A stretch of 64,000 nucleotides of DNA, taken from assembly GCA_900073065.1 (NCBI GenBank), contig FJOG01000002.1, positions 1,368,652 through 1,432,651 of the forward strand, in the 5' to 3' direction. The stretch comes from Phialocephala subalpina (taxonomy: Eukaryota > Ascomycota > Leotiomycetes > Helotiales > Mollisiaceae). This document shows positions 2,971-41,827 of this stretch, one piece after another. The number at the start of each line of letters is the position of its first letter. The first letter of the stretch is position 1. Made by a program: the position numbers and the translations under genes. Under the pieces are notes generated by a model that worked only from the letters and a program-made list of their open reading frames with translations, was not told the DNA's origin and did not search any database.

Positions 2971-3446
2971 GTTGGCGACTTCGGAGAAGACCATTTTTGC
3001 CGGATTGAGAGGTGGAAATTTCAACTCTTGGGAAAACATAGGTAGGAAGGCGAAGGTCTTTTAACATGTTTTGCTGGAACTTGCTCTTGGATCTCAATCG
3101 CGTCACGTGTGAAGGCGGGAATCAGGATAAGGTGCATACCCGACGACAGGGTATCGGGAATCTAACTAGGCAATGCAGATCGACGCCATAGCCCCGCCCT
3201 AGACTACTACCACATAGCATAGGGCCTGCGGGGTAGTTGGGGATCTATACTGGTAATTCCGAAGGCTATGCTGTCCTGTGACATAGCCGATATGAGAGAA
3301 AGGCCCCTGTTGGTTATCACGGCGTTTACATGTTAGGTGCAAATGCCAATTCCTATGACATTCCGATTCCCTGTCCCGCTTTCTTCTACTATGACTGATA
3401 TATAAGTTCAACCCTTTCTACACCTCATGTTTTTGCAGAATAAGAA

Positions 3447-4547
3447 ATGCTCCCCCAAAGCCTACGTACACTCACCAGACTACAAGCCATCAAATCATCA
3501 ACCCCCCAATCCTTATTCAGTCGTACCTTCACTTCAAAAGCAGCAATGGCAATTCCTAAAACTCAAAATGCCATCGTCCAGCCGGACATGATGTCCACAG
3601 CCGTGATCATGACAACTGATCACCCCGTCCCGACGGCAGCACCCTCCACTACTGAACACCTTATCCGTGTACATGCCACCGCCATCACCAACGGCGAGTT
3701 ACTCTGGACCAAAAACTTCGGCATACCGCCCGAGTTTGCCGCCACCAAGATCCTCGTCCCCTGCAACGACGTCGCGGGCACGGTCGTCACCTCTCCGCCT
3801 ACCTCCCCCTTCCAGCCGGGGACAGAAATATATGCGCGTTCAAACTACTACCGCACGGGCTGCGCGAGGGAGTATTCGATTCTGCTGACGGAGGAGATGG
3901 CAAAGCGACCTACGAAGCTTTCATGGGCCGAGTCGGCGACGGTGCCTATGTCCGCGGAGACCGCTTGGCAGGCTCTGTTTATCCATGCTGGATTGGAAGC
4001 GAAAGCTAGTGAGGGTGCAAAGGGGAAGCGGGTATTTATTACGGCCGCTTCTGGTGGTGTTGGTGTTTGGATGGTCCAGCTTGCGAAGTGGGCTGGGGCT
4101 GAGGTTATTGCGACTTGTGGTACGGATAGCGTGGAATGGGTGCGGTCGTTGGGGGCGGATGAGGTGATTGATTATACCAAGACGGACTTGAAAGAGTGGG
4201 CTAGCGGAGAGGAAAAGAAGGTTGATCTGGTGATCGATTGTATTGGTCGGAAATCACTCGAGGATGCGTGGTGGGTCATCAAAGATGGTGGGGCTTTGAT
4301 CAGTATATTTCAGCCACCTGAGCAGATGAGACCGGCTGGAGTGGAGGGGAATATCAAAAGCTTGTTCTTCGTCATGGGCTCGAATGGAGAGCAACTCCAG
4401 AAGGTAACAGAATTGATCGACTCGGGTGTCGTTAGTAAGGTTGCATTGGACAGTGTCTTCCCATTCGACCAGTTCCAGGACGCTTTCAAGAAACTAGAAA
4501 GTGGAAAGACGAGGGGAAAAGTAGTATTAGACTTAGGCGTGAATTAG
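3447..4547 (+). CDS. MDR-family NADPH-dependent oxidoreductase, possibly mitochondrial
   Basis: Single exon, 366 residues. It has a GroES-like N-terminal domain, then a Rossmann fold with ASGGVGVWMVQLAK at residues 201-214 and an acidic dinucleotide-binding strand. The catalytic and structural zinc cysteines of true alcohol dehydrogenases are absent, so it belongs with the zinc-independent quinone oxidoreductase / reticulon-4-interacting-like group. The first 33 residues are rich in Arg, Ser and Thr without acids (MLPQSLRTLTRLQAIKS), which looks like a mitochondrial presequence; Met34 is an alternative cytosolic start. Expected chemistry is NAD(P)H-dependent reduction of a quinone or enone. 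The substrate is unknown. Confidence 0.85.
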   Translation: MLPQSLRTLTRLQAIKSSTPQSLFSRTFTSKAAMAIPKTQNAIVQPDMMSTAVIMTTDHPVPTAAPSTTEHLIRVHATAITNGELLWTKNFGIPPEFAATKILVPCNDVAGTVVTSPPTSPFQPGTEIYARSNYYRTGCAREYSILLTEEMAKRPTKLSWAESATVPMSAETAWQALFIHAGLEAKASEGAKGKRVFITAASGGVGVWMVQLAKWAGAEVIATCGTDSVEWVRSLGADEVIDYTKTDLKEWASGEEKKVDLVIDCIGRKSLEDAWWVIKDGGALISIFQPPEQMRPAGVEGNIKSLFFVMGSNGEQLQKVTELIDSGVVSKVALDSVFPFDQFQDAFKKLESGKTRGKVVLDLGVN

Positions 4548-6243: not shown

Positions 6244-9200
6244 TTATGCGATTGTACTCGTAGGCGCAGAACTCGCCCATTGCGTCCCAGTCGCCGTCCC
6301 CGTAATCGTAACTTGTGTCGCAACATACAAATTATACTGATTCCCAGCACCACATCTCAACTTCCCCGTACTATCACCAGGACACGTGAAAGTACACGCC
6401 TTCGTGCCAACCAAGCTGGTTGGCTCGGGTGTAGGCGCCACAGAGCCTGCATAACATTCTCGTCCGTACTCAATGCCGGCGTAGAGATAGGTAGTGGCTG
6501 GGGTGGCGGAGAGACGGGCAAGTGCGGAGGAGATGCAGAGGTCGGGTGTCATGCTGTCATTTGAGAAGAGTTTGGGCATGTTGTGGCCGCCGTAGGGTCC
6601 GCCGGCTGGGTCGGAATAGCACCCGCTGTAGGCGAAGCCGCGGAAGGTGGGGACTGTTAATGTTGATGTTGGGGATACGGAAGAGGTCGTTGACGTGCTT
6701 GTTATGAGGGTTGAGGGTGTGGATGTTGAGGATTGCGATGTTGATGTTGTGGAAGAGGTTGTTGATGATGACGATGATAGAGATGAGGAGGACGACGTTG
6801 ATTGCGATGCCGTGCTTGTTTGCGAGGTACTGGACAAAAGTGTAGACGCACTGCTCACGCTGGAGGAACTGGAGCTTACGGTCGAAGAGGAGCTGCTGAT
6901 TGTGCTTGATACGGAAGATAGCGACGACGATGAAGAACTTGGCGCCGAGCTGGAGCTGGATACGGCCGCTTTAACTTGATACATCGAGAGTTTCGATGCA
7001 CCGCCACACTTTGCCAATGTCAGTAAATATTCGGGACAATCTCGTTTGAACAATCACTCACGTATTCGAGAGAGTTAGCCGAACAAAGGTCACTGCACCC
7101 ACTATCAGCAGTCACCACACTTCCCGCAGCAAGAGAATTGCCACAGTAACCTATCACAATATTAGCAAGGCTTTATATATCACGTGCGGGTCACGACTTA
7201 CACTCTCGATGATACTCAACACCAAAGTACGTATATCCAGCGCAAGTAGTAGCACATATCTCGACAGTCATATTATCATTGGCATACACCAAGCTTGAAA
7301 GGGCCCGCGTGTTCGTTGCTTCCGTGTAACAGCCAATGTAGCTGAAATTGCCTGCAGTCTTGACAATGACAGGTCCGGTAGGCGTTGCAGACGCTGAAGA
7401 TGTCAAACTTGTGGTACTGGCACTCAGGCTTCCGAAAGCACTCGACGAGCTTGAGCTGGTAGATTGGGAAGTCGTTCCACTCGTAGACGACACAGTGGAC
7501 GATGTACTGCTCCCAGATGCCGAGGATGTCGAACTTGACGAAGACCCAGAGCTGGATGCGGTACTTTGGGACGTCGTAACCGAGGTGGATACTGTCGAAG
7601 ACACCGTACTCGAACTGACCGTCGTTGACGGAGCCGCCGATGAGGATGACGAACTCGATCCTGGAACGGTTCCATCTGCTGGACCTGGGACATATGTGGT
7701 TCGATCGTAGTAGATGGAAATGTATGTGCCATCGCCACCGCAGGCTTGGGAGACATCGCCTGGACAGCTGAATGCGCATTTCTTCAGAGAGTCGGCGGTA
7801 AACTTAGAAGCAGGAGGAACACTGTTTCCACACCAACACTCGGTATGATACTCTGTTCCCGCAAATTTGTAGCCTCCAGCAAAGCAAGTGTTCTGACACC
7901 ATCCGTTCTCATTGCTAGCATTGGTATACTCCTTAGACAAGATTCGTCCACCTCCGTCGTAGTAGCATCCTAGGTATAGATACTCCGAAGAACCGTTCGC
8001 CAACAAAGGTCCAACTTGACGGGTCACAATGTTGGCTGTGATTTCAACATCATGAACACCAAAGTTGACGTCGTCAGTGTTTAGGATCCAGACATCCGAG
8101 ACAGTGTGCGCGAGACGATCCACACCCAAAGGTGCAGCAACGATAGAGACCTGACCCAATGCACAAGAGTTGATATCGATCGATTGTCCTTCGTGGAGAT
8201 CAACATTGGAGTTGGGAGCAAGAAGCTCAGTATCGATCGGGGGCTTGCTCTTCGTGATGAGCAGGGCAGAGCCACCTGCATTGCAGATCCGGATATTCCT
8301 CGAAACTGTCGTGCCAGCGAGAACATCGCCAAAGTCCATAACGACTGGACTAGAATAATCCCATCCACCCTCAATTGTAGAGACGGAAATGTTTGCAATT
8401 GGAGCCGTAGAAGCAGATGCCGTCAGGAGAACATCTCCCGTACCTCCAGTCGTCCACCAATTGACGAATGTCGAGTACGCGCCAGTAGCATTGGACACGA
8501 ACTGCACAGGAATCGTCAAGGATCCACCAGGTGCAATGGTGTCGCCGACATTTGGCAGATTTTGGGAGCTGAAACTTGCACCAAGATTTCCGTTCGTAAT
8601 ATTTGTCCAAACAATAGGTGCCTTCGTTGTGTCAATTGAGGAGGTCCAAGCCGTACCCAAGAAGGTGAGAGTATCTGCTCCAACGTTGGCGAGAATGACG
8701 GAGGCAGAAAGACCGGAAACTGCAGCCTGAGAACCGACGACGACACCACCAAGGTCAACAGCGGGAGGGGTGACGGTAAGGTATGCTGTCTTCGAAACAG
8801 TCGTACCGCTCAAAGAGATTGGGAGGACACTGCTGTACTGGGCAACGGCATTCGTTGTGTAAAGATCGAGACTGGTACTTTCAACACCGGGCATGACCTT
8901 GCCAAACGACGCGTTCTGGGCATTGTCGATGGAAGCTTGAGTCAAGTTCCAGGTGACTGGGAAGGAGAAAGTAGCGCCTTTTGCCAAGGCCCCTTGAGGC
9001 AGTGATGAATTCGAGCACTGCCAGGTAGCATCTCCAGTTGTGCAGCCGTTGATATTTGTGATGGCAATCAAAGCTGTACAGTTGATGATCCTGGTTGAAG
9101 TGTCGCCAATTGTGAGACTGCCAAAGTCGACTGGCTGAGAACATTGCAAGGGAAGTGCGACGGGCGAGCCCAAGCAGATAACGTTGCCGTTACTGTCGGA

Positions 9201-31321: not shown

Positions 31322-34300
31322 TTACCTCTGGAAATCCAATAACGGCATAATCAAATCGCAATCTGAATCCACATCAAAGTCCTCCAGCAGCGGATCTTCT
31401 CTCTTCCGCGGCTCCTCCGTAAGAGACAAAACTGCCTCTTTCGCAACCACCCATTCGCCCATATTCTGTGGCTTGAGGTACACCACTATAGGTAGCTGTG
31501 GTCGCTCACCATACATTGCGCCGATTATGATCTTCGCGCATTCGTTTCTGCTTCGAGGCGGGTAGAAGTGGATCGGTCGAACTCTTGCGGACCGGGGTAG
31601 CGCAACTTTCTTGTCGAGAGTTTGGATCTCCTCTTCAACTTCGTCTTTGAGGCGAAGATCGGGGAAATATTTGGAGATGGATGGCGTGTCATTTCTGATC
31701 GGTGGATCTTGGCGTACGGTCAAAGGTATCTTGTAGACCCGCAGCCATTCCCCGCTAAGAGAGATGTAGACATGATTTTCCTCCCATGTGAAGGTGAACG
31801 GGAGCTGCGAGATTGCAACAGCGGGCCATATACCCAGCGAGATTCCATGGCGACGCGGCAAAGTCTTCGGGCGACGAGAAGACGGGTTCTTCGTGGATAG
31901 CTCGACTGTCAAGACCTGATTGAATAGCTTGACAGTTGGAGTGCTACCCTCGAGCATTTTAGCCGAGACCCGTCCGATGTGGAGATATCGCCCGCAATTG
32001 GAGAAACGCAGTGCTACCTTGACGGCAGAGACTTCGCTTCCCTTACTCTCCGCTTCATCGAAAGAGATATGGTACGTGAGATAAGTGTTCTCCAACAGAT
32101 TGGCGAATAGGAAACGTCGCCCGTCTAAGGGAAAGACCAGAAGAGGTAAAGTTGGATGGAGTACTGGAGGCGACTCGTACAGTAAAGTCGGACTGGCAGT
32201 GGTATATCGAAAGACCGTCTCTGGTCCGGACAATCTGTTGCGCTGGACCGTGATGTTGACTCCTGGTCGAGCATCATTGCGACACGCTGTCCCAATCGTC
32301 ACAAATCGGTTCTTGCGTCCTATCATCTTGACCAGTTGGTGGTAGTTCTTAGGGCACCATTCACCCTTGCCAAAACAAGCGGAACACATATCCCAGCCTT
32401 CTGCGTTGCAAAGCCTGCATTGGTAGAATGGCAGGGGGTCGCCATCAAGGCCACAATACTCACGGCAGAGGTCACATGCTCGAAACTGGAAAGTCCTGGA
32501 CCGAGCGATCTTAGGCTGGAATTTGAAGATTCCGCTGAATTCGGAGTCTGAATCGTATCTGGCAATGTCCGACTTCTCGTCGTCGGCGTCAGACTCACCG
32601 TCGCTGTGATCGATGTCAGAATCTCCAACGGACGAAGCTGACGTTACAGACTCGACTGCAGAGCTTGATTTGTTGCTTCTTAGTGATAATGAGCTTGATG
32701 GATCCTCGGTATCGTGCCCAATCTCCGAGTTCGAATCTGATTGCAGTTCGTCTTCGCCACCTGAATGTCCGGCAGACTCTTCGTCGGCAGAGCTGTCCTT
32801 GCGCTTCAACTCTTTCTCGGATGAGCTAGCAGATGCTGAGGAATCTACGGACCAGTACTCCTCTGCGGAGGATATGAGCTCCTCGCGTTCCTGCTCATCA
32901 AGAATGTCTGACTCGTCAGAGTCGTCCTCGTCGGATGTAAGAGGACTACTTCGCTTCTCCTTCTTTCTGCGGCCGTTGCCCGCCGAACCGTCTGCAGGTT
33001 TGATCACTTTCTCCGGTTTGACCAATTTTCGTCGCGAACGGACAGTGTAGTGTCCTTGGATGAAAACATCTTCCCAATATGGAAGCGACTTCCCACCTGA
33101 TCCTCTTTCTTCAATTGTCCACTGTCTCTCCTGAGCTCGGGTGAAGAAGGCAGAACCAATTCTCAGGCCTATCCCATGCTGACTGTCAGCAATGGCTGGC
33201 ACACGTATAGGCGAATCTTGGGCAGGAATCAGAAGGAAGTCTCTAAAGTGGCAGGGGTCGTAGAGATCCCACTGTGCCAAGGATGGGTCAAACGATATCG
33301 TCTCCGTCGGACCGTATTGAAAAGGGGCTCTGGAACCATCGATATACCAGAGTTCACGTTCGAGCCTCACGTTTGAAGTTGCGCTGACATTAGAACTATC
33401 AATGTCAGTCCCCTGTGAGATGATGTTGAATGGGAAGGGTGTCTCTTTACCAGTCTGGACTTGCTTTCCATACCGATAGCCTTGTACCATCCTCACTTAT
33501 CGTGTTGTAGACACAGCGCTGACAATCATCCCTTTCCCTTTCACATTCCCTCTCAGCATCTGCTCCAGCGAGTAGAAAGCTCTGGTTCTGTTCAATGCTC
33601 CGACCACTACAAGAAGTTAGTAAGTGGTTTCAAGGGATGCTGAGGAGTTGAGGAGCCGAGGAGTCGAGCTCTTCGGGAGCTTGACTCCTTACGAACTGGT
33701 AGAATCAGGGCGGGATTTATACATACAGGACGCCAAGGAAATTTCGAGGTCCAAGAGCACCCCAAAGGCACCTCTCGATCTCGCCATTCATGAAGTCCGT
33801 CACGCCTAGTTGGAGGTACCTGCTCCACTCGGTGATGAAGATCTCATAGTCCTTTACGAGACAGCGGCCATCGGTACAATTCCTGAACCACTCTGGGATG
33901 TTTCGCTTCATCAATTTTCGCGACTTGTTCTCATGATCGAAACTGTTGATGAAATGACCTACGACGAAGAGGCTTTGGACCTGGATTGAGGTTATGAATT
34001 GTGGAGATGAGATGAAAGCCTTCATATCTTCGCATCGGTCGCAGCCCCATTCTTCGAGATGTCGATACCAGTATTTTGCTGCATATTGCAGAAAGTGGTG
34101 CTGGCGTATGTTGTCCGGGCAGCGTTCGAATCCGGTTTCGAACTCTGTTGCGGACAGCTTCCTGAGGATTTTCGAGTACCGCACCTGAGAGAGGTATTTG
34201 AGGCAGGCATCTGCAATAGTATCGTGACAGACAAGTATTTCCGGTACAGATCCGGAAGCGTTGTCACACTTGTCTACCCTTTTAGCCATATGTTCTTGCA

Positions 34301-36682
34301 AAAACTCATAAACAGATGCATGTGACAATTGGAGATGGCCATCAGCAGATTTTTCGGGCGATGAAACGAAATCTACCAAGGGTGCGCAGCGGTGCATAAT
34401 GTCTTGTTTCAAGATCAAGGTGTCCGAGTCGAGGTTTGGACAATTTCCTTCCGTAATTTTCATCTGGTGGATCGACAGAGCCTCCTGAACCTCTCCCACT
34501 TTCAACGGCCGTTTCGCAAACATTAAGATTGATAGAATGTCCCTGCGTAACCGGAACATTAGCGATGCCTAACGAGATGATGAATCGTATCCACGCAGAA
34601 TCTTACATTGATATCGGAGGGTTACCCTCTTCTTGATCGTTTTTATCGAGCCTCTTGAGTTCCTTGAAATGCATTTGGTAACTTTCACGCAAACTTTTAG
34701 GAAGACCCTGCAGCACCTTGTCAACCAGATCCTTGGGTATCTTGGTATTTGTGAGGCTATTTCCCATCATGGACGCCCAGCGAAAATTGCAGCCGGCTTG
34801 AATATGCAGCGCAGCTGTCACGGCTGCTTTATCAGCAGGATCGCTGAGCCTCACCAAGATGTTGTCCTGTGTGTGGGCAAGGTATTGGTGGATGTCTTGC
34901 TCGATACTCGTCTCGTCAGCAATTAATTCCACTGGTTTCAGCTGCATCATCCACCCGTTGACCGGATCGGCCTTTTGGCTACTACACCAGAGGCGAACCT
35001 TCGTTCCAGATGCGTCCCAGGCCATGGAGGCGAGAAATTGGAGCGTGATGAGAAGATCCTCGCGCAACATGTCTGCGACTTGGCATGCTGAGGACGATGC
35101 AGTTTCCAGGAATCGAATCTCGTCGAGGCCATCGAGAAAGAAGTAAGCAGCAGAGCATTGGGAGACAAGCAGACGAATGAGGTCGTGGATATTGCTGGCT
35201 TTGGTCGCGTTCTGGTTGAGCAAGGAAAGAACCTCCGTATCGATCCCGCCTTGCTCAGCAAGAACGTGGTCAAGCAGTTGCGACGCGAGCAGTGTGGCCA
35301 TTTGACATTTGGAGCGCTCCTTCCTGTACGTAACCATCAGGTAGGGGGTTGCAGGTCGCATTGGCGTCTGTGAGATCTGCTGGACGGCAACAGAGCATAA
35401 CACCGATTTCCCCGAACCACCCGGTGCCGTGAGCCAGAGAATGCGATTTGCGTCCTCTTTAGTTACCCAGTCTGAGAACACCGTATTGCTGAACAGCCAT
35501 TCGCAAGTGCCGTCGTGGCGTTGATTCAAGCATCTTTCATGGTCGTTTGTGTTCAATTCAGAATGGCTTTCAGCTTGGCCTCCTACTGCCATCCCAATCC
35601 AGCTTCGAACCTTTTGGATTTGCTCGTCATCCTTGGTGATACAAACCCTTCCCGCTCGAATGCGATCTAGAAGGCGCTGGTAATTGTTGTTCCTTTCTGA
35701 GAATTTGCAAATTGTCAAGTGTTTGACTCCATCCAGATGAAGAGTTCGCTCGTGGCGCAGAAATGTTAGGCCTGTATCTCCTGGAGCAACCTACAGTGGC
35801 TGTCAACATCTCGAGCCGCTCAAATTCAAAGGAACTTGCTCTCACATCGTCTGCAAACCCATTTGGTCGTAGGCTAGCACATGAGGAGGTGATGTTGAAC
35901 CCAGTTGCGATCTCGCCGAAAACCTTGCGGAGGTCACTTAGGACGCTGGACCATAACTCCCACTGCCCAATGCTCTTCTCACTAAAGGTGCCTCTCGATA
36001 AGGAACGCCATGCACCGGCGTTTAGACCTTCATGCGGGGTGTCAAGGAAGATAACATGTTTAGTCTTTCGTAGTATGAGCCCATATTGGGAGTTACGCGC
36101 GTGAGAATATGAAAGTGCCTAAGTTGTCCGGTTAATCCCTGGCTCATGCCTTTGCCATTTGAATGCATAGTCGGAGACATGGAACTCACGCTCTTGATGA
36201 CAATTCCACCTGTACCATGGCCAATGAAGGTGATAGACGGGGAGCTCTGAATCCCACATCAGCACTATGCAGAATTGATCTCTTCCTCCAGTCACTTGAA
36301 CATTGATGCATACCTTTGGCAAGAGCTTGTAATTGTCATACAAGTCAGAGCACAAAGCCTCCCCATGATTGAAGATTCTGCCTTCCTCACAGGCATCGTC
36401 AGATCGAACAGTTGGTTTGTTTGTATGATAGCCAAATGACAAGATTCTGGTGTTCTCCAGATCGTGACCGAGCAATTCTACAGGCCAGAACAAACCTCCT
36501 TCATCCTGCCAGTCGGAGATGGGGCCGGAATGGAGGCCATGAACGAGTACAATGCTGGGTGATATTCAGAACATGGTGTATACCTCAAGCTGGGGCGACG
36601 GGTCTACTCACTCGTGCAAAACCTTTCCAAGCTTCACGCCAGCCTCAGGCCAGAGTACCTTCAAGCCGAGAAAGTCCTCCAT
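31322..36682 (-). CDS. NLR/STAND protein: hydrolase-like N-domain, NACHT-type NTPase, propeller-like C-half with ZZ zinc finger
   Basis: Exons 36682-36612, 36554-36314, 36246-36190, 36118-35846, 35790-34607, 34542-33727, 33606-33451, 33395-31322; 1623 residues, all phases agree. The intron 33726-33607 has gtatgt and ends ttactaacttcttgtag, an ideal branch point and acceptor, and it joins what otherwise looks like two genes. Domains: residues 20-215 alpha/beta-hydrolase of the SesB/DUF676 type (DIVLVHGLHSG, FIGHGTGGIVIKS, FLDTPHEG); the nucleophile Ser is replaced by Gly115. P-loop APGGSGKS near 336-343 and Walker B YFFLDGLDEI near 430-440, then a winged-helix/helical region (KRPLKVGEVQEALSIHQ). 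Residues about 900-1080 are propeller-like, 1088-1218 an acidic Ser-rich spacer, and a ZZ-type finger with repeated CxxC begins near 1239. Such proteins serve in fungal nonself recognition; this role is inferred. Confidence 0.82.
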
Positions 36683-37195
36683 TCTACCCAAATAGAGACG
36701 GGATAGGATGGTCGCTTTGGGCACGATAAAAATCCGAACTCTTGACAGTGATAAACATGCAGTTGAACAAATTGGTGCAGAGAGTCGATCGCGAACTTTC
36801 GTTAACTGCAAGTTTCATCTCAAGGTGGTGTGGTACGGCTGCTGACTGCATGGGACAAGCCTCCCCTGCAACTGTGTCAGCCCCTTCTACAATCACCCAG
36901 CCTAGCGCGTTGCATTTGTGGAATCGGGTGGTGACACCATATTGCATACTCGGCGACTGCCTATTAAGAGCGATTCGAGAGGGCAATCCAGGCTGTCGCA
37001 GATCATTGGCTACAATGCTCCAGTCTTGCCACAGCGCCCACCTCCTTCAGCCGCAAGTCGACAAAATGATGAACCCCACTTGGCTGGCAGAGTTCCCTAA
37101 ACTCGCAACCTCTCGCAGACTCACATATGTAAATCGAGGTTCAACCATCAGATCAAAAGCATTTTGGTTACTCCAACATAGAGAGCATCGACAAA
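36683..37195. promoter_or_regulatory. Shared intergenic region of NLR and hydrolase genes
   Basis: 513 bp between two divergent ATGs. It must hold both promoters unless unseen 5' exons exist; open frames inside it on the minus strand lack an in-frame ATG that extends the NLR. Co-regulation of the pair is inferred from layout only. Confidence 0.45.
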
Positions 37196-38431
37196 ATGCC
37201 AGCGCAAGATAAAGATCTGCCCGATGAGGAGTGGCTAAAGCCCCCAGTGAGTTCGATGACCCCACCAGGAGCTTTGTTGATAACCCAGCCTAAAGCCCAG
37301 CACACTGGGCCTTCATCAGGTTTATCCCGACCCAAAAGTCAGAAGCAATCCGACAATTGAGTGAGTGGAATTTGCATCAAATTATTCTAGGCCACCACAT
37401 TGACGACGACAGCGTCGTGTTTGTCCATGGACTTGGGGGCGACTCATACTCGACCTGGACGAGAGATGACACCCTCTGGATCCGCGACTTGCTTCCAACT
37501 TGCGAGTACTTCGAAGATGCCCGTATCATGACTTTTGGATACGATGCGAGAGCATTTCTGCATCCTTTTGCGCGATCCAGTACTGGCAGAACCTTCACTT
37601 TCGCCGAGGCGCTCCTAAATGATCTAGAGGATAAGCGTACGACTGCCGCTGTGAGCAACCTTCCACCGATCTTTTCTCAATTCCTGGAACAGTATTAATT
37701 GCGCGAAGGCGAAGAAACGCCCAATCATCTTCATGGGCCACAGCCTTGGTGGAATTGTCATCAAGAGCGTCAGTATATTGCTTCTCATGTTCCCATTTGA
37801 GGTTCCTGACACGAAGGAATTGTTTAGGCGCTCAGACATGCGTATGCGCTCTACAGTCAGTATGGGAATATCCTCGACTCAACAAAAGCCATTGTATTTT
37901 TCGGAACTCCGCATCAGGGCGCCGACACGGCTACATGGGCAGCATTTCTCGGAGGTCTCAGCAAAGCCATTCGAATTCGCAACACTGAGGTCGTCGAGGA
38001 ACTCAAACGTTGGTCCAATCCGCTAGTTGAGCTGACAACCACCTTCGCAGAACTAGCCCCGCGCTTTCAGATCACCACATTCTTCGAGGAGCTGGCAACC
38101 AATGGCATCTTAGTGTGTCTAGCTTTCATGCTCCTAATTATCCCATGGCTAACGTGTGCAGGTTGTTCCACAAGGTTCTGCGCGGATAGGGAACGAGCGC
38201 GCGCGGGGCCTCCACGCTGATCACAGAGGCGTCTGCAAATTTACGGAACTCGACCCGAACTGGACTCCAGTCAAAGGACGTCTCGAGGGGATTGCCGTTG
38301 GCATACAGGAAGAGCTTGCCGTCCAATTGCCGAAAATGCCAACAGTGCCCACGATTGGTACTGTTGATCTGGGGGCTGGATTCGAGGAGCAGATGGCGCA
38401 GCGAATGGAAAGACTACGGTCCGGTCAGTGA
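37196..38431 (+). CDS. Stand-alone alpha/beta-hydrolase, SesB/DUF676-like
   Basis: Exons 37196-37319, 37391-37650, 37709-37768, 37828-38112, 38162-38431; 332 residues. The first donor (gtttat) is weak, so the first 42 residues are the least certain part. Motifs: VVFVHGLGGDSYSTW (oxyanion strand), FMGHSLGGIVIKS with the nucleophile Ser140, FFGTPHQGAD after it, and a late HADHRG that could hold the catalytic His. It is a putative serine esterase or lipase acting in the cytosol; no signal peptide. The fold, the motifs and two intron positions match the N-terminal domain of the divergent NLR gene, but here the active serine is kept. No NACHT part follows. Confidence 0.8.
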
Positions 38432-38884: not shown

Positions 38885-41827
38885 ATGCCTCCCGAAGCCC
38901 CAGTACAACTGGTACGGAAAGCGACGAGCGGAGCTAATGTCTTTGACGCATGGCAATTTAAGCGCCTCGTCGATAAAGATGTGTCTGTCGATGTCATCAA
39001 GCAATTGCAAAAAGACTGTGGTGATGATTTGACGCTCGGTACGTGTCGTCCGGATTGCACTCGTCGATCAATCTACTCACGCGTGTTATGGTGAAGCCGT
39101 GGACAAATTCCACGAAATGGAGGCCAAAGCCAAAATTTCTACAAGCCCAACTCAGGAGAAAGGAGTGAATGGAGTTGGTGAGAAGGCTGCCACGGAAGAG
39201 ACGAAAACAGTCTGCTATAGAGATCAATAGTCAGTAATTGTCCTTCACTCGATATACAGGTTAGTATTGCGAGGCAAATCAGCTGACATGTTTAACAGCT
39301 GGGATAAGTGAGTTTTGTTATGCAAAAATACGGTCATCGCTTGAGATTAAGCAGCAGCTGACGAACATGTTCAATTCAGGTCCAAGCGAAAATGGGTGTT
39401 AAAGAGAACTTCCAAGGGATCATCTGGAATCAAGAGCCTTGGGCGATATGTCCTCTTCGTCCGCCGGGTCTACACAGAGAAAATGACCTATTCTCACACC
39501 GTCATCATCGTCAAAGGTGCCATCCTTCGAAATGCCCTATGCAACATCTTCAGAGGAGCCGATGGTTTCATTTTGACAGATGATGAGAATGTCGAGGTTA
39601 GGACAAAACTTCCCGAAAGTATTATCTGTGCTAAGTTTCCATTTAGATTGAGAACATTCGTTTTCTGTTCTGGGCAAGATTAGAACTTGAGCTGTTAGCT
39701 GAGCACTACCAAAGTGTGGACAACATTCAAGCTCTCTTCGAGATCAATGCTGGCCTGCAATTTATCCAAGAAGAATGGTCAACGACACTCTCTGCTCTGG
39801 ACTCGTTGCTCCCGCATTCCATGTCGTTCGATTATCTCTGGGCTATCTTTCCTCCGGATTGTCTTGTCATTGGCAAGGACATGTTGGATCGTCCCAGTGT
39901 ATGGCGAATTCGTAGCCATGCCGTCTCCCGACAACAAGATGGGTCCGTGATCATGACTTTGAAGGCCGAGTCTCTCGACTGGAACGGCAAGAGACTAGGA
40001 ATTGCGGAACGATCATTGGTCATCCGTGCTTTCACGGGCAGCATGAGCGTTCAGGACCTGCCCTACGTCCCACTACGGCTCCACCCTGGAGCAAAGAGCA
40101 TCATGGAGAAGATTTTGAAGCGCAGTCAGAGGAAATTAGAATTTTGTCGTTCAGGATTTAAAGTTCAGGAACATGAGGGGCGTGGTATTACCGAGATCGA
40201 TGGAAAGCTCGCGTTGTGTAATGTAAGTGCATGGAGAGAGTGGAGTGACATTTCTAACCTTTCGTAGTTTCACGGCCGTGTTATCATTGATCCGAAGATG
40301 CTAACTCGTGTCCAACCTATGAGCTCGCTCGTCCCCGGTCTAAGGAAATTTCGCGACGTGAGCAGAGCATGTATCACGGAGTTCACAACATCCAAGAAGG
40401 TATTACCCGATCGTATTCCCCGCCATGCCAGGTGTGATATCAACGATATCTAATTTCATGTGTTTTCTTATGCAGGATATACTTGATGATCTCCTGAAGG
40501 ATCAATCTCAGAACACAGCAGGCAATTCCTCCAATGAAGTAGGAATATCGAACAGACGCCGCAGATACAGCTTCAGCAGTGCTAGCGAAACGGACACCGA
40601 TACCGACTCAGACAATGATCTCCTCCCTCATGAGGGAGATAAGACAAGATATCGCTCCATTGGAGAGAACTTGAATACCGAGCAGCTACTGCTCCTCTCA
40701 GGCTTCGTATACGGATACTGTCTTGGTGACGCAACTTGGGGTAAAGTCATCATCTGTGTCGTTGAGGAAGGTTGAAGTACTAATGGCGGCTTAGGGGCTT
40801 TTGGCGTTGATCGAGTCACTGATGTCGAATGGAAAGAGTCAATCTTTGGCGATGTCGTGATGGACCCTAACTTAAAGGAGATCATCTTTCGGCTCATCAA
40901 GGCACACGGCTCGCAAATATCTGACTTCGACGACTTCGTCAAGGGCAAAGGAAAAGGTCTCATCGGTCTGCTTCATGGACCGCCAGGCTCAGGAAAGACC
41001 TTGACAGCTGAAGCTATCGCCGAAACTGCGCACATGCCCCTTTACATGGTCTCGAGCGGTTCGCTTGGCCATGAGGCAGATGACATCTACGAGAGTCTCA
41101 AACGGATCTTTGAGCTGACAACACACTGGAAAGCAGTCCTGCTTCTGGATGAGGCAGATGTTTTTCTTTCACGGCGGTCATTGAGTGATCTGAAGAGAAA
41201 CGCAATAGTGTCTGTCTTTTTGCAGGAGCTGGAGTATTACCAAGGCATCATGCTCTTGACTACAAACTTAGCTCAGAACATCGACGAGGCATTTCAGAGT
41301 ACGTTCATTCTTTCCCAAACCATGGCATGACTAGCAGCTCAGACTTATCATCGTGCAGGTCGAATCCACTTCTGTCACCACTACCCCACACTTGATTTCT
41401 CTGCTCGCAAGAAGATCTGGGAAAGCTTCATCGAGAAAGCCCGAGGCACTGAGTCAGTGAAGGTTGACGTTGGACCCAGCGGGATTGAACAACTAGCAAA
41501 GTTAGAGCTCAATGGACGTCAAGTAAGAAACCTCTGCATTTCACTCCAAACCAAATGGTCTCTTCGCAATGCTGACTATTACAGATTAAAAACGCAACCA
41601 GTATCGCAATTAAGTTGGGTTCGAGCAGCGACTCTTATACCATCACCGCCGATTCCATCATTGCCACAGCGAAGTCTTTGCAGAACTTCAACTTCGAGGA
41701 CACTAGACCTGTTTCGAAAGGAAGAGGCTCTGTCGAGCAGGACGTTGCTCTACCGGCTAAACCTCAAGTCCCACTAAAGCCAAAGCCTGTGATTCGGAGT
41801 CCGTCACCCGGTAATCGTCGGACTTGA
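38885..41827 (+). CDS. AAA-family ATPase with long N-terminal domain
   Basis: Exons 38885-39038, 39097-39229, 39299-39307, 39380-39596, 39647-40222, 40268-40399, 40476-40740, 40795-41298, 41359-41522, 41585-41827; 798 residues. The third exon is only 9 nt; skipping it creates an immediate TAG, including it keeps frame. The N-terminal 500 residues match the architecture of fungal AAA proteins carrying a DUF7025-type domain (YVLFVRRVYTEK, SLDWNGKRLG, FHGRVIIDPKM). The AAA core has HGPPGSGKT near 556-563, LLLDEADVFL near 610-619 and the sensor LTTN, then a short lid and a Pro-rich tail. Expected: ATP-driven remodelling of an unknown protein partner. A repeated Thr-Asp run (TDTDTDSD) lies before the core. 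Confidence 0.85.

Follow-up and report, generated by a model that had tools for sequence, protein, structure and literature searches.

The locus described here raises the question of what an alpha/beta-hydrolase domain contributes to a fungal NLR once two of its three catalytic residues are gone, when a neighbouring gene encodes a relative that has kept them. It lies in a window of 64,000 nucleotides (the whole stretch of DNA that was analysed) belonging to the 68.1-Mb assembly of the helotialean ascomycete Phialocephala subalpina. The NLR is encoded by PAC_01633 on the minus strand (31322..36682). Splicing of its eight exons (36682-36612, 36554-36314, 36246-36190, 36118-35846, 35790-34607, 34542-33727, 33606-33451 and 33395-31322), separated by seven introns that all read GT..AG, gave a model of 1623 amino acids with one terminal stop, identical to the database protein P0001. 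Residues 1-262 constitute a SesB-like/DUF676 domain for which an alpha/beta-hydrolase fold is predicted. This domain is 35% identical to the product of the neighbouring gene (E 2e-37); its DUF676 score of 19.9 bits lies just below the cut-off of 20.3, and the orthologue models P0014 and P0143 score above it. A nucleotide-binding core follows (Pfam NPHP3_N, residues 308-443, E 2.5e-20; 35104..35511, minus strand), which at 73.7 bits (cut-off 24.8) and with the P-loop GGSGKS marks the protein as a fungal NLR of the STAND/NACHT type. The C-terminal half had no Pfam match. Its last exon (31322..33395, minus strand) encodes a conserved region of unknown fold, presumably the recognition region, and by our own reading a ZZ-like zinc-finger cysteine pattern (about 32325-32480, minus strand), preceded by a long acidic Ser/Asp-rich stretch.

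The nucleophile elbow is encoded by exon 3, a symmetric (phase 0-0) micro-exon of 57 nt (36190..36246, minus strand) with the sequence SITFIGHGTGGIVIKS. It reads GHGTGG and thus places Gly115 (GGT, 36214..36216, minus strand) at the nucleophile position. The original prediction had claimed precisely this replacement of the elbow serine in a 1623-residue NLR, and the splice model confirmed its coordinates, codon and architecture. A second loss had been overlooked: the catalytic acid is replaced by Ala204 (35876..35878, minus strand), which leaves His238 (35719..35721, minus strand) as the sole remainder of the triad. These assignments are based on alignment and on the topology predicted for P0015, a relative of the neighbouring hydrolase (mean pLDDT 87.1), in which Ser128 follows strand 122-127, Glu223 ends strand 217-223 and His254 follows strand 245-250. 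The PDB matches of this model were alpha/beta hydrolases.

The neighbouring gene, hereafter the partner, is transcribed divergently on the plus strand (37196..38431), and a gap of 513 bp between the two start codons (36683..37195) presumably holds both promoters. Our own gene model with six exons (37196-37246, 37296-37360, 37413-37650, 37709-37768, 37828-38112 and 38162-38431) encodes a stand-alone SesB-like/DUF676 serine hydrolase of 322 amino acids, for which no database entry was found among the matches listed. As originally predicted, it keeps the elbow serine, Ser130 (AGC, GHSLGG; 37742..37744), and in addition Glu225 (GAG, ITTFFE; 38086..38088) and His254 (CAC, ADHRGVCKF; 38222..38224). 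The three positions fit the topology of P0015, and together with a DUF676 score of 33 bits they qualify the partner, judged by its residues, as a putative catalytic SesB-like enzyme. At the DNA level the two genes match with clear significance only in the elbow exon (42 of 51 positions identical, 23 bases exact); since protein conservation can explain this match, a recent exchange of DNA need not be invoked. The partner is adjoined by an AAA ATPase gene (about 38885-41827, plus strand; Pfam AAA E 4.3e-18 in exon 40776-41330).

To place both losses in their family, we aligned 19 N-domains of the NLR clade with 118 stand-alone relatives and ten other entries from the NLR search, the latter being those with a pattern-readable elbow out of 27. 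Three short models lacking the NACHT part (P0014, P0037 and P0049) had been reassigned from the stand-alone set to the NLR clade on the strength of their sequence and tree position, and six NLR-search entries without N-domain letters (P0134, P0137, P0140, P0141, P0142 and P0144) are absent from the alignment. At the nucleophile column, the 12 readable NLR-clade rows carry Gly (11) or Asp (1) and never Ser; the seven gaps come from gene models that skip the micro-exon or begin after it. Stand-alone relatives by comparison show Ser in 114 of 117 readable rows (Gly 2, Cys 1; one gap), and the ten other NLR-search entries Ser (9) or Cys (1). The acid column, which corresponds to Glu225 of the partner, contains Ala (15), Val (1), Gly (1) and two gaps in the NLR clade, Glu in all 112 readable stand-alone rows (six gaps) and Glu in all ten other entries. 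His is kept in 15 NLR-clade rows (one Arg, three gaps); among the stand-alones, which align more poorly there, it is found in 89 rows, with 23 gaps and six other residues. The residue following the nucleophile site varies within the clade (Thr, Ala or Val). The loss of catalytic residues in the NLR clade exceeds chance. With two of three triad residues replaced throughout the clade, the sequences strongly support a catalytically dead N-domain, as the original prediction had proposed from the serine.

Simpler accounts of the replaced serine were rejected. No GxSxG motif is present in residues 1-265, and the introns flanking the micro-exon, at 67 and 71 nt, are too short to accommodate another exon for the elbow. 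A sequencing error or recent mutation does not agree with two adjacent codons that differ from GHSLGG and with orthologues in the same state. That glycine is common in active homologues likewise found no support: both stand-alone rows that carry it, P0126 (Hypoxylon crocopeplum, GHGLGG) and P0062 (a JGI metagenome-source protein, AHGLGG), keep the Glu.

Some variants of the elbow were observed elsewhere. In P0012, an ankyrin-type NLR from Geoglossum simile, the nucleophile site is occupied by Cys (GHCFGG, residues 113-118). P0004, P0009 and other database orthologue models lack the micro-exon with the frame kept, by annotation error or real in-frame exon skipping. A census of the P. subalpina genome found Ser in 22 of 23 distinct elbow strings, which is a lower bound because the search pattern missed PAC_01633 itself. 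At a second P. subalpina locus (L077, G000:C62:1937000-1946900), a SesB-like N-domain with the elbow CHGLGG and with Glu and His kept (7685-8890, plus strand) runs, by our own reading, into an apparent NB-ARC start. A divergent relative with CHSLGG (3061-4272, minus strand) lies about 3.4 kb away, with an apparent cytochrome P450 gene, again our own reading, in between. This Gly elbow is possibly an independent, younger loss.

When the columns of nucleophile and acid were masked, the N-domains of the NLR clade came out as one group (SH-aLRT 100 in a tree of 17 selected rows, from which N_P0010 and N_P0139 were dropped as short; 100/100 with 15 rows). One change each accounts for the loss of nucleophile and acid in a 65-row tree sample, which omits O_P0013, S_P0125, N_P0008, S_P0075, S_P0070, N_P0049 and S_P0062, rows of fewer than 120 letters, and all but three of the stand-alones numbered P0060 and above. 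The non-Ser stand-alones P0062, P0125 and P0126 fall outside this sample and would therefore represent further, separate losses. Judged by these trees, the double loss is an old state common to the NLR clade, whose members we take to belong to Leotiomycetes, Sordariomycetes and Dothideomycetes. The dead domain was the best-conserved adequately covered region of the NLR in six of six comparisons, all with P0001 as reference; identities for the domain and the NACHT region were, for example, 93.5% and 86.1% in Acephala and 63.2% and 54.7% in Xylaria. In the structure predicted for the Acephala orthologue (mean pLDDT 83.2), the elbow is still framed by strand 108-114 and helix 117-130; definition is poor at residues 72-81 and 208-217, the latter adjoining the lost acid. 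The PDB matches of this model were weak (best E 1.4e-5) and comprised alpha/beta hydrolases, including KAI2- and D14-like folds, as well as AAA and STAND ATPases including CED-4.

The arrangement of a dead beside a live hydrolase, which the original prediction had pointed out, is not restricted to the window. At least nine of 22 NLR-clade entries (21 besides P0001) lie on the same contig as a stand-alone hydrolase, as inferred from an identical size printed for the longest contig of both entries. The corresponding count for the other NLR-search entries was 0 of 27 (Fisher p 2e-4), a control that is biased because the stand-alone list was built from relatives of the NLR clade. This list, which for the linkage count included P0014, P0037 and P0049, comprises 120 of 334 matches after clustering at 90%, so that further partners may be hidden. 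Linked pairs were found in Acephala, Xylaria, Hirsutella, Clonostachys, Phyllosticta, Nemania, two Colletotrichum species and one metagenome contig, giving ten pairs with that of the window. In the two Colletotrichum species the locus tags of NLR and hydrolase follow directly on each other (CORC01_07187/07188 and CMEL01_16554/16555), and in Xylaria they are three apart. Gly could be read directly in five of the ten paired NLRs (P0001, P0002, P0003, P0006 and P0145), that is in four of the nine others, and Ala occupies the acid site in these five as well as in P0009 and P0010; P0138 lacks both letters, and the N-domain is missing from the models P0137 and P0140. Among the matches listed, no partner was seen on the contigs of 12 of the 21 other NLR-clade entries, several of these contigs being only 5.7-41 kb long. 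The smallest group holding the partners (97/87, support that counts only rows assigned to groups) includes rows from fungi in which no such NLR was seen.

NLRs and partners also diverged in a correlated manner. Across the ten pairs, distances between NACHT regions correlated with those between partners at r 0.97 (permutation p 5e-5), a value partly driven by Clonostachys; once Clonostachys and near-duplicates were removed, the seven remaining pairs gave r 0.78 (exact p 0.0004). In the NLR trees, C. orchidophilum clusters with Hirsutella (94/96; 78/79), apart from C. melonis, the NLR of which is poorly placed. The partners of the first two group in the smaller tree (81/84), and in the larger tree only within a Xylaria/Nemania group (97/96). 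By raw identity, the C. orchidophilum NLR is no closer to that of Hirsutella (37% over 1145) than to that of C. melonis (44% over 584), which speaks against a clean split within Colletotrichum. Because the distances correlate, NLR and partner have likely been co-inherited, and shared descent accounts for part, and perhaps much, of the correlation.

A subclade of four entries, P0005 (Hypoxylon), P0136 (Pestalotiopsis), P0143 (Amniculicola) and P0037 (Ophiobolus), showed no partner on the listed contigs among the hydrolase matches listed. Two of its gene models, the only source of this fusion, carry a HET domain behind the NLR (P0005, residues 1925-2087; P0136, residues 1886-2048) and are collinear across the junction with 50% identity; the HET domain is absent from the two shorter models, P0143 and P0037. 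All four members have a broken TPHxG motif; in the ten remaining readable domains it is intact. One of the four carries Asp at the nucleophile site and one Arg in place of His. Capture of a HET domain and decay of motifs where no partner is seen would be expected for a partner that acts as effector and a dead domain that is there to serve it.

According to parts of PMC4986451, the N-terminal slot of fungal NLRs holds an effector or an adaptor, and SesB-like domains, among the most frequent annotated N-domains, are listed there as lipase/esterase effectors. NLR/effector pairs, SesB beside STAND genes, communication through shared amyloid motifs and the all-in-one alternative are known from sections of PMC3321046 and PMC9815663. 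In the amyloid pairs HET-S/NWD2 and sesA-sesB/het-eN (PMC3321046, in part), an NLR gene likewise lies beside a likely effector, a sesB-type alpha/beta hydrolase. PAC_01633, by contrast, has no N-terminal extension, its hydrolase homology beginning near residue 5, and it carries a dead relative of the putative effector instead. Three simple regular expressions for the PP, sigma and HET-s amyloid patterns matched neither NLR nor partner, and an amyloid pairing was rejected on this basis. All-in-one SesB-like NLRs such as NWD4 (PMC3321046 and PMC4986451, in part) also fuse an alpha/beta-hydrolase N-domain to a NACHT-type ATPase; the ten other entries of the NLR search in which the elbow is readable differ from the clade in having Ser (9) or Cys (1), all with Glu. 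Dead SesB domains in NLRs were not reported among the literature matches listed, with subscription journals and bioRxiv outside the search scope, and the word "catalytic" occurs zero times in the main text of PMC4986451, PMC9815663 and PMC12258605.

We propose that the window holds a divergent pair of NLR and effector, the former carrying an inactive copy of the latter as adaptor to the live enzyme, a reading on which our confidence is evenly divided. The NLR would combine a pseudo-hydrolase N-domain, a NACHT-type ATPase and a long C-terminal region presumably used for recognition. As a dead member of the effector's own family, the N-domain would be a protein-interaction adaptor rather than an enzyme. 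Upon activation the NLR would oligomerise and cluster its dead domains, which would bind the neighbouring serine hydrolase through like-with-like contacts, thereby activating or releasing it; this enzyme might then act as a lipase or esterase, probably limiting or killing the cell. For this pair we infer the role of the partner as effector, physical contact, direction of control, substrate and cell death. Precedents exist for parts of the scheme. DPP6 and DPP10 are inactive alpha/beta hydrolases in which Ser is replaced by Asp (DPP6) or Gly (DPP10), with elbow conformation and His kept in a role unrelated to catalysis; they differ in being membrane proteins of Kv4 channel complexes, and DPP10 retains the Asp (PMC4350108, in part). 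The lipase-like alpha/beta-hydrolase heterodimers of EDS1, PAD4 and SAG101 in plant NLR signalling are joined mainly by those domains, but they are not fused to an NLR and act downstream of TIR products (PMC9528080, in part).

Other functions of the dead domain were weighed against the adaptor. If the live hydrolase, bound to the dead domain, held the NLR off, its loss or inhibition would free the NLR, much as DPP9 restrains NLRP1. The same linkage evidence would favour such a guard, yet the NLR of the paired lineages would be left without an identified effector, and we regard this arrangement as decidedly unlikely. In plant integrated-decoy NLR pairs, a copy of another protein is built into the NLR. 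Such pairs are mentioned in parts of PMC12258605, where integrated decoys are also proposed for fungal NLRs; unlike in them, the linked gene here encodes an enzyme rather than a second NLR, and the domain is N-terminal. A dead domain that mimics the live hydrolase and serves as bait for a foreign effector or an incompatible allele targeting it would account for the recurrence of a dead relative beside a live one. However, the domain occupies the N-terminal slot and is the best-conserved rather than a diversified part of the NLR, which would, with this domain dead, need another effector; a partner that is itself the effector also accounts more readily for the HET fusion found in the subclade where no partner is visible. 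A decoy thus appears unlikely. The original prediction had favoured a sensor or decoy; its non-catalytic domain and dead/live pair stand, and in place of that role an adaptor recruiting or restraining the live partner explains the observations no less well.

Alternatively, the pocket emptied by the losses (Gly, Ala, His) might bind a small ligand or retain other chemistry, like the plant alpha/beta-hydrolase receptors. The retained His, the TPHxG motif kept outside one subclade and the KAI2- and D14-like folds among the structural matches are consistent with this idea. It is nevertheless improbable, as KAI2 and D14 keep their catalytic triad and the clade accepts either Gly or Asp at the nucleophile position, followed by Thr, Ala or Val. 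A leftover domain decaying under relaxed selection would have no present role, and it is indeed losing motifs in the HET subclade; a domain more conserved than the NACHT region in every comparison, with a double loss that is old, makes this explanation highly improbable.

In more general terms, the adaptor reading would suggest a third route from NLR to effector, in which a pseudoenzyme copy of the effector activates the live enzyme through homotypic assembly based on the fold and in which, once the partner is lost, a HET domain is captured and the adaptor decays; to this wider proposal we attach slightly less than even confidence. If true, this route would stand beside amyloid templating and the all-in-one fusion. 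Nature would then have separated scaffold from enzyme in an old NLR clade with a dead domain and a linked, triad-complete relative, and the dead/live pair would make SesB-type NLR signalling directly testable. The finding also carries a warning that annotation by fold overstates the number of enzymatic effectors.
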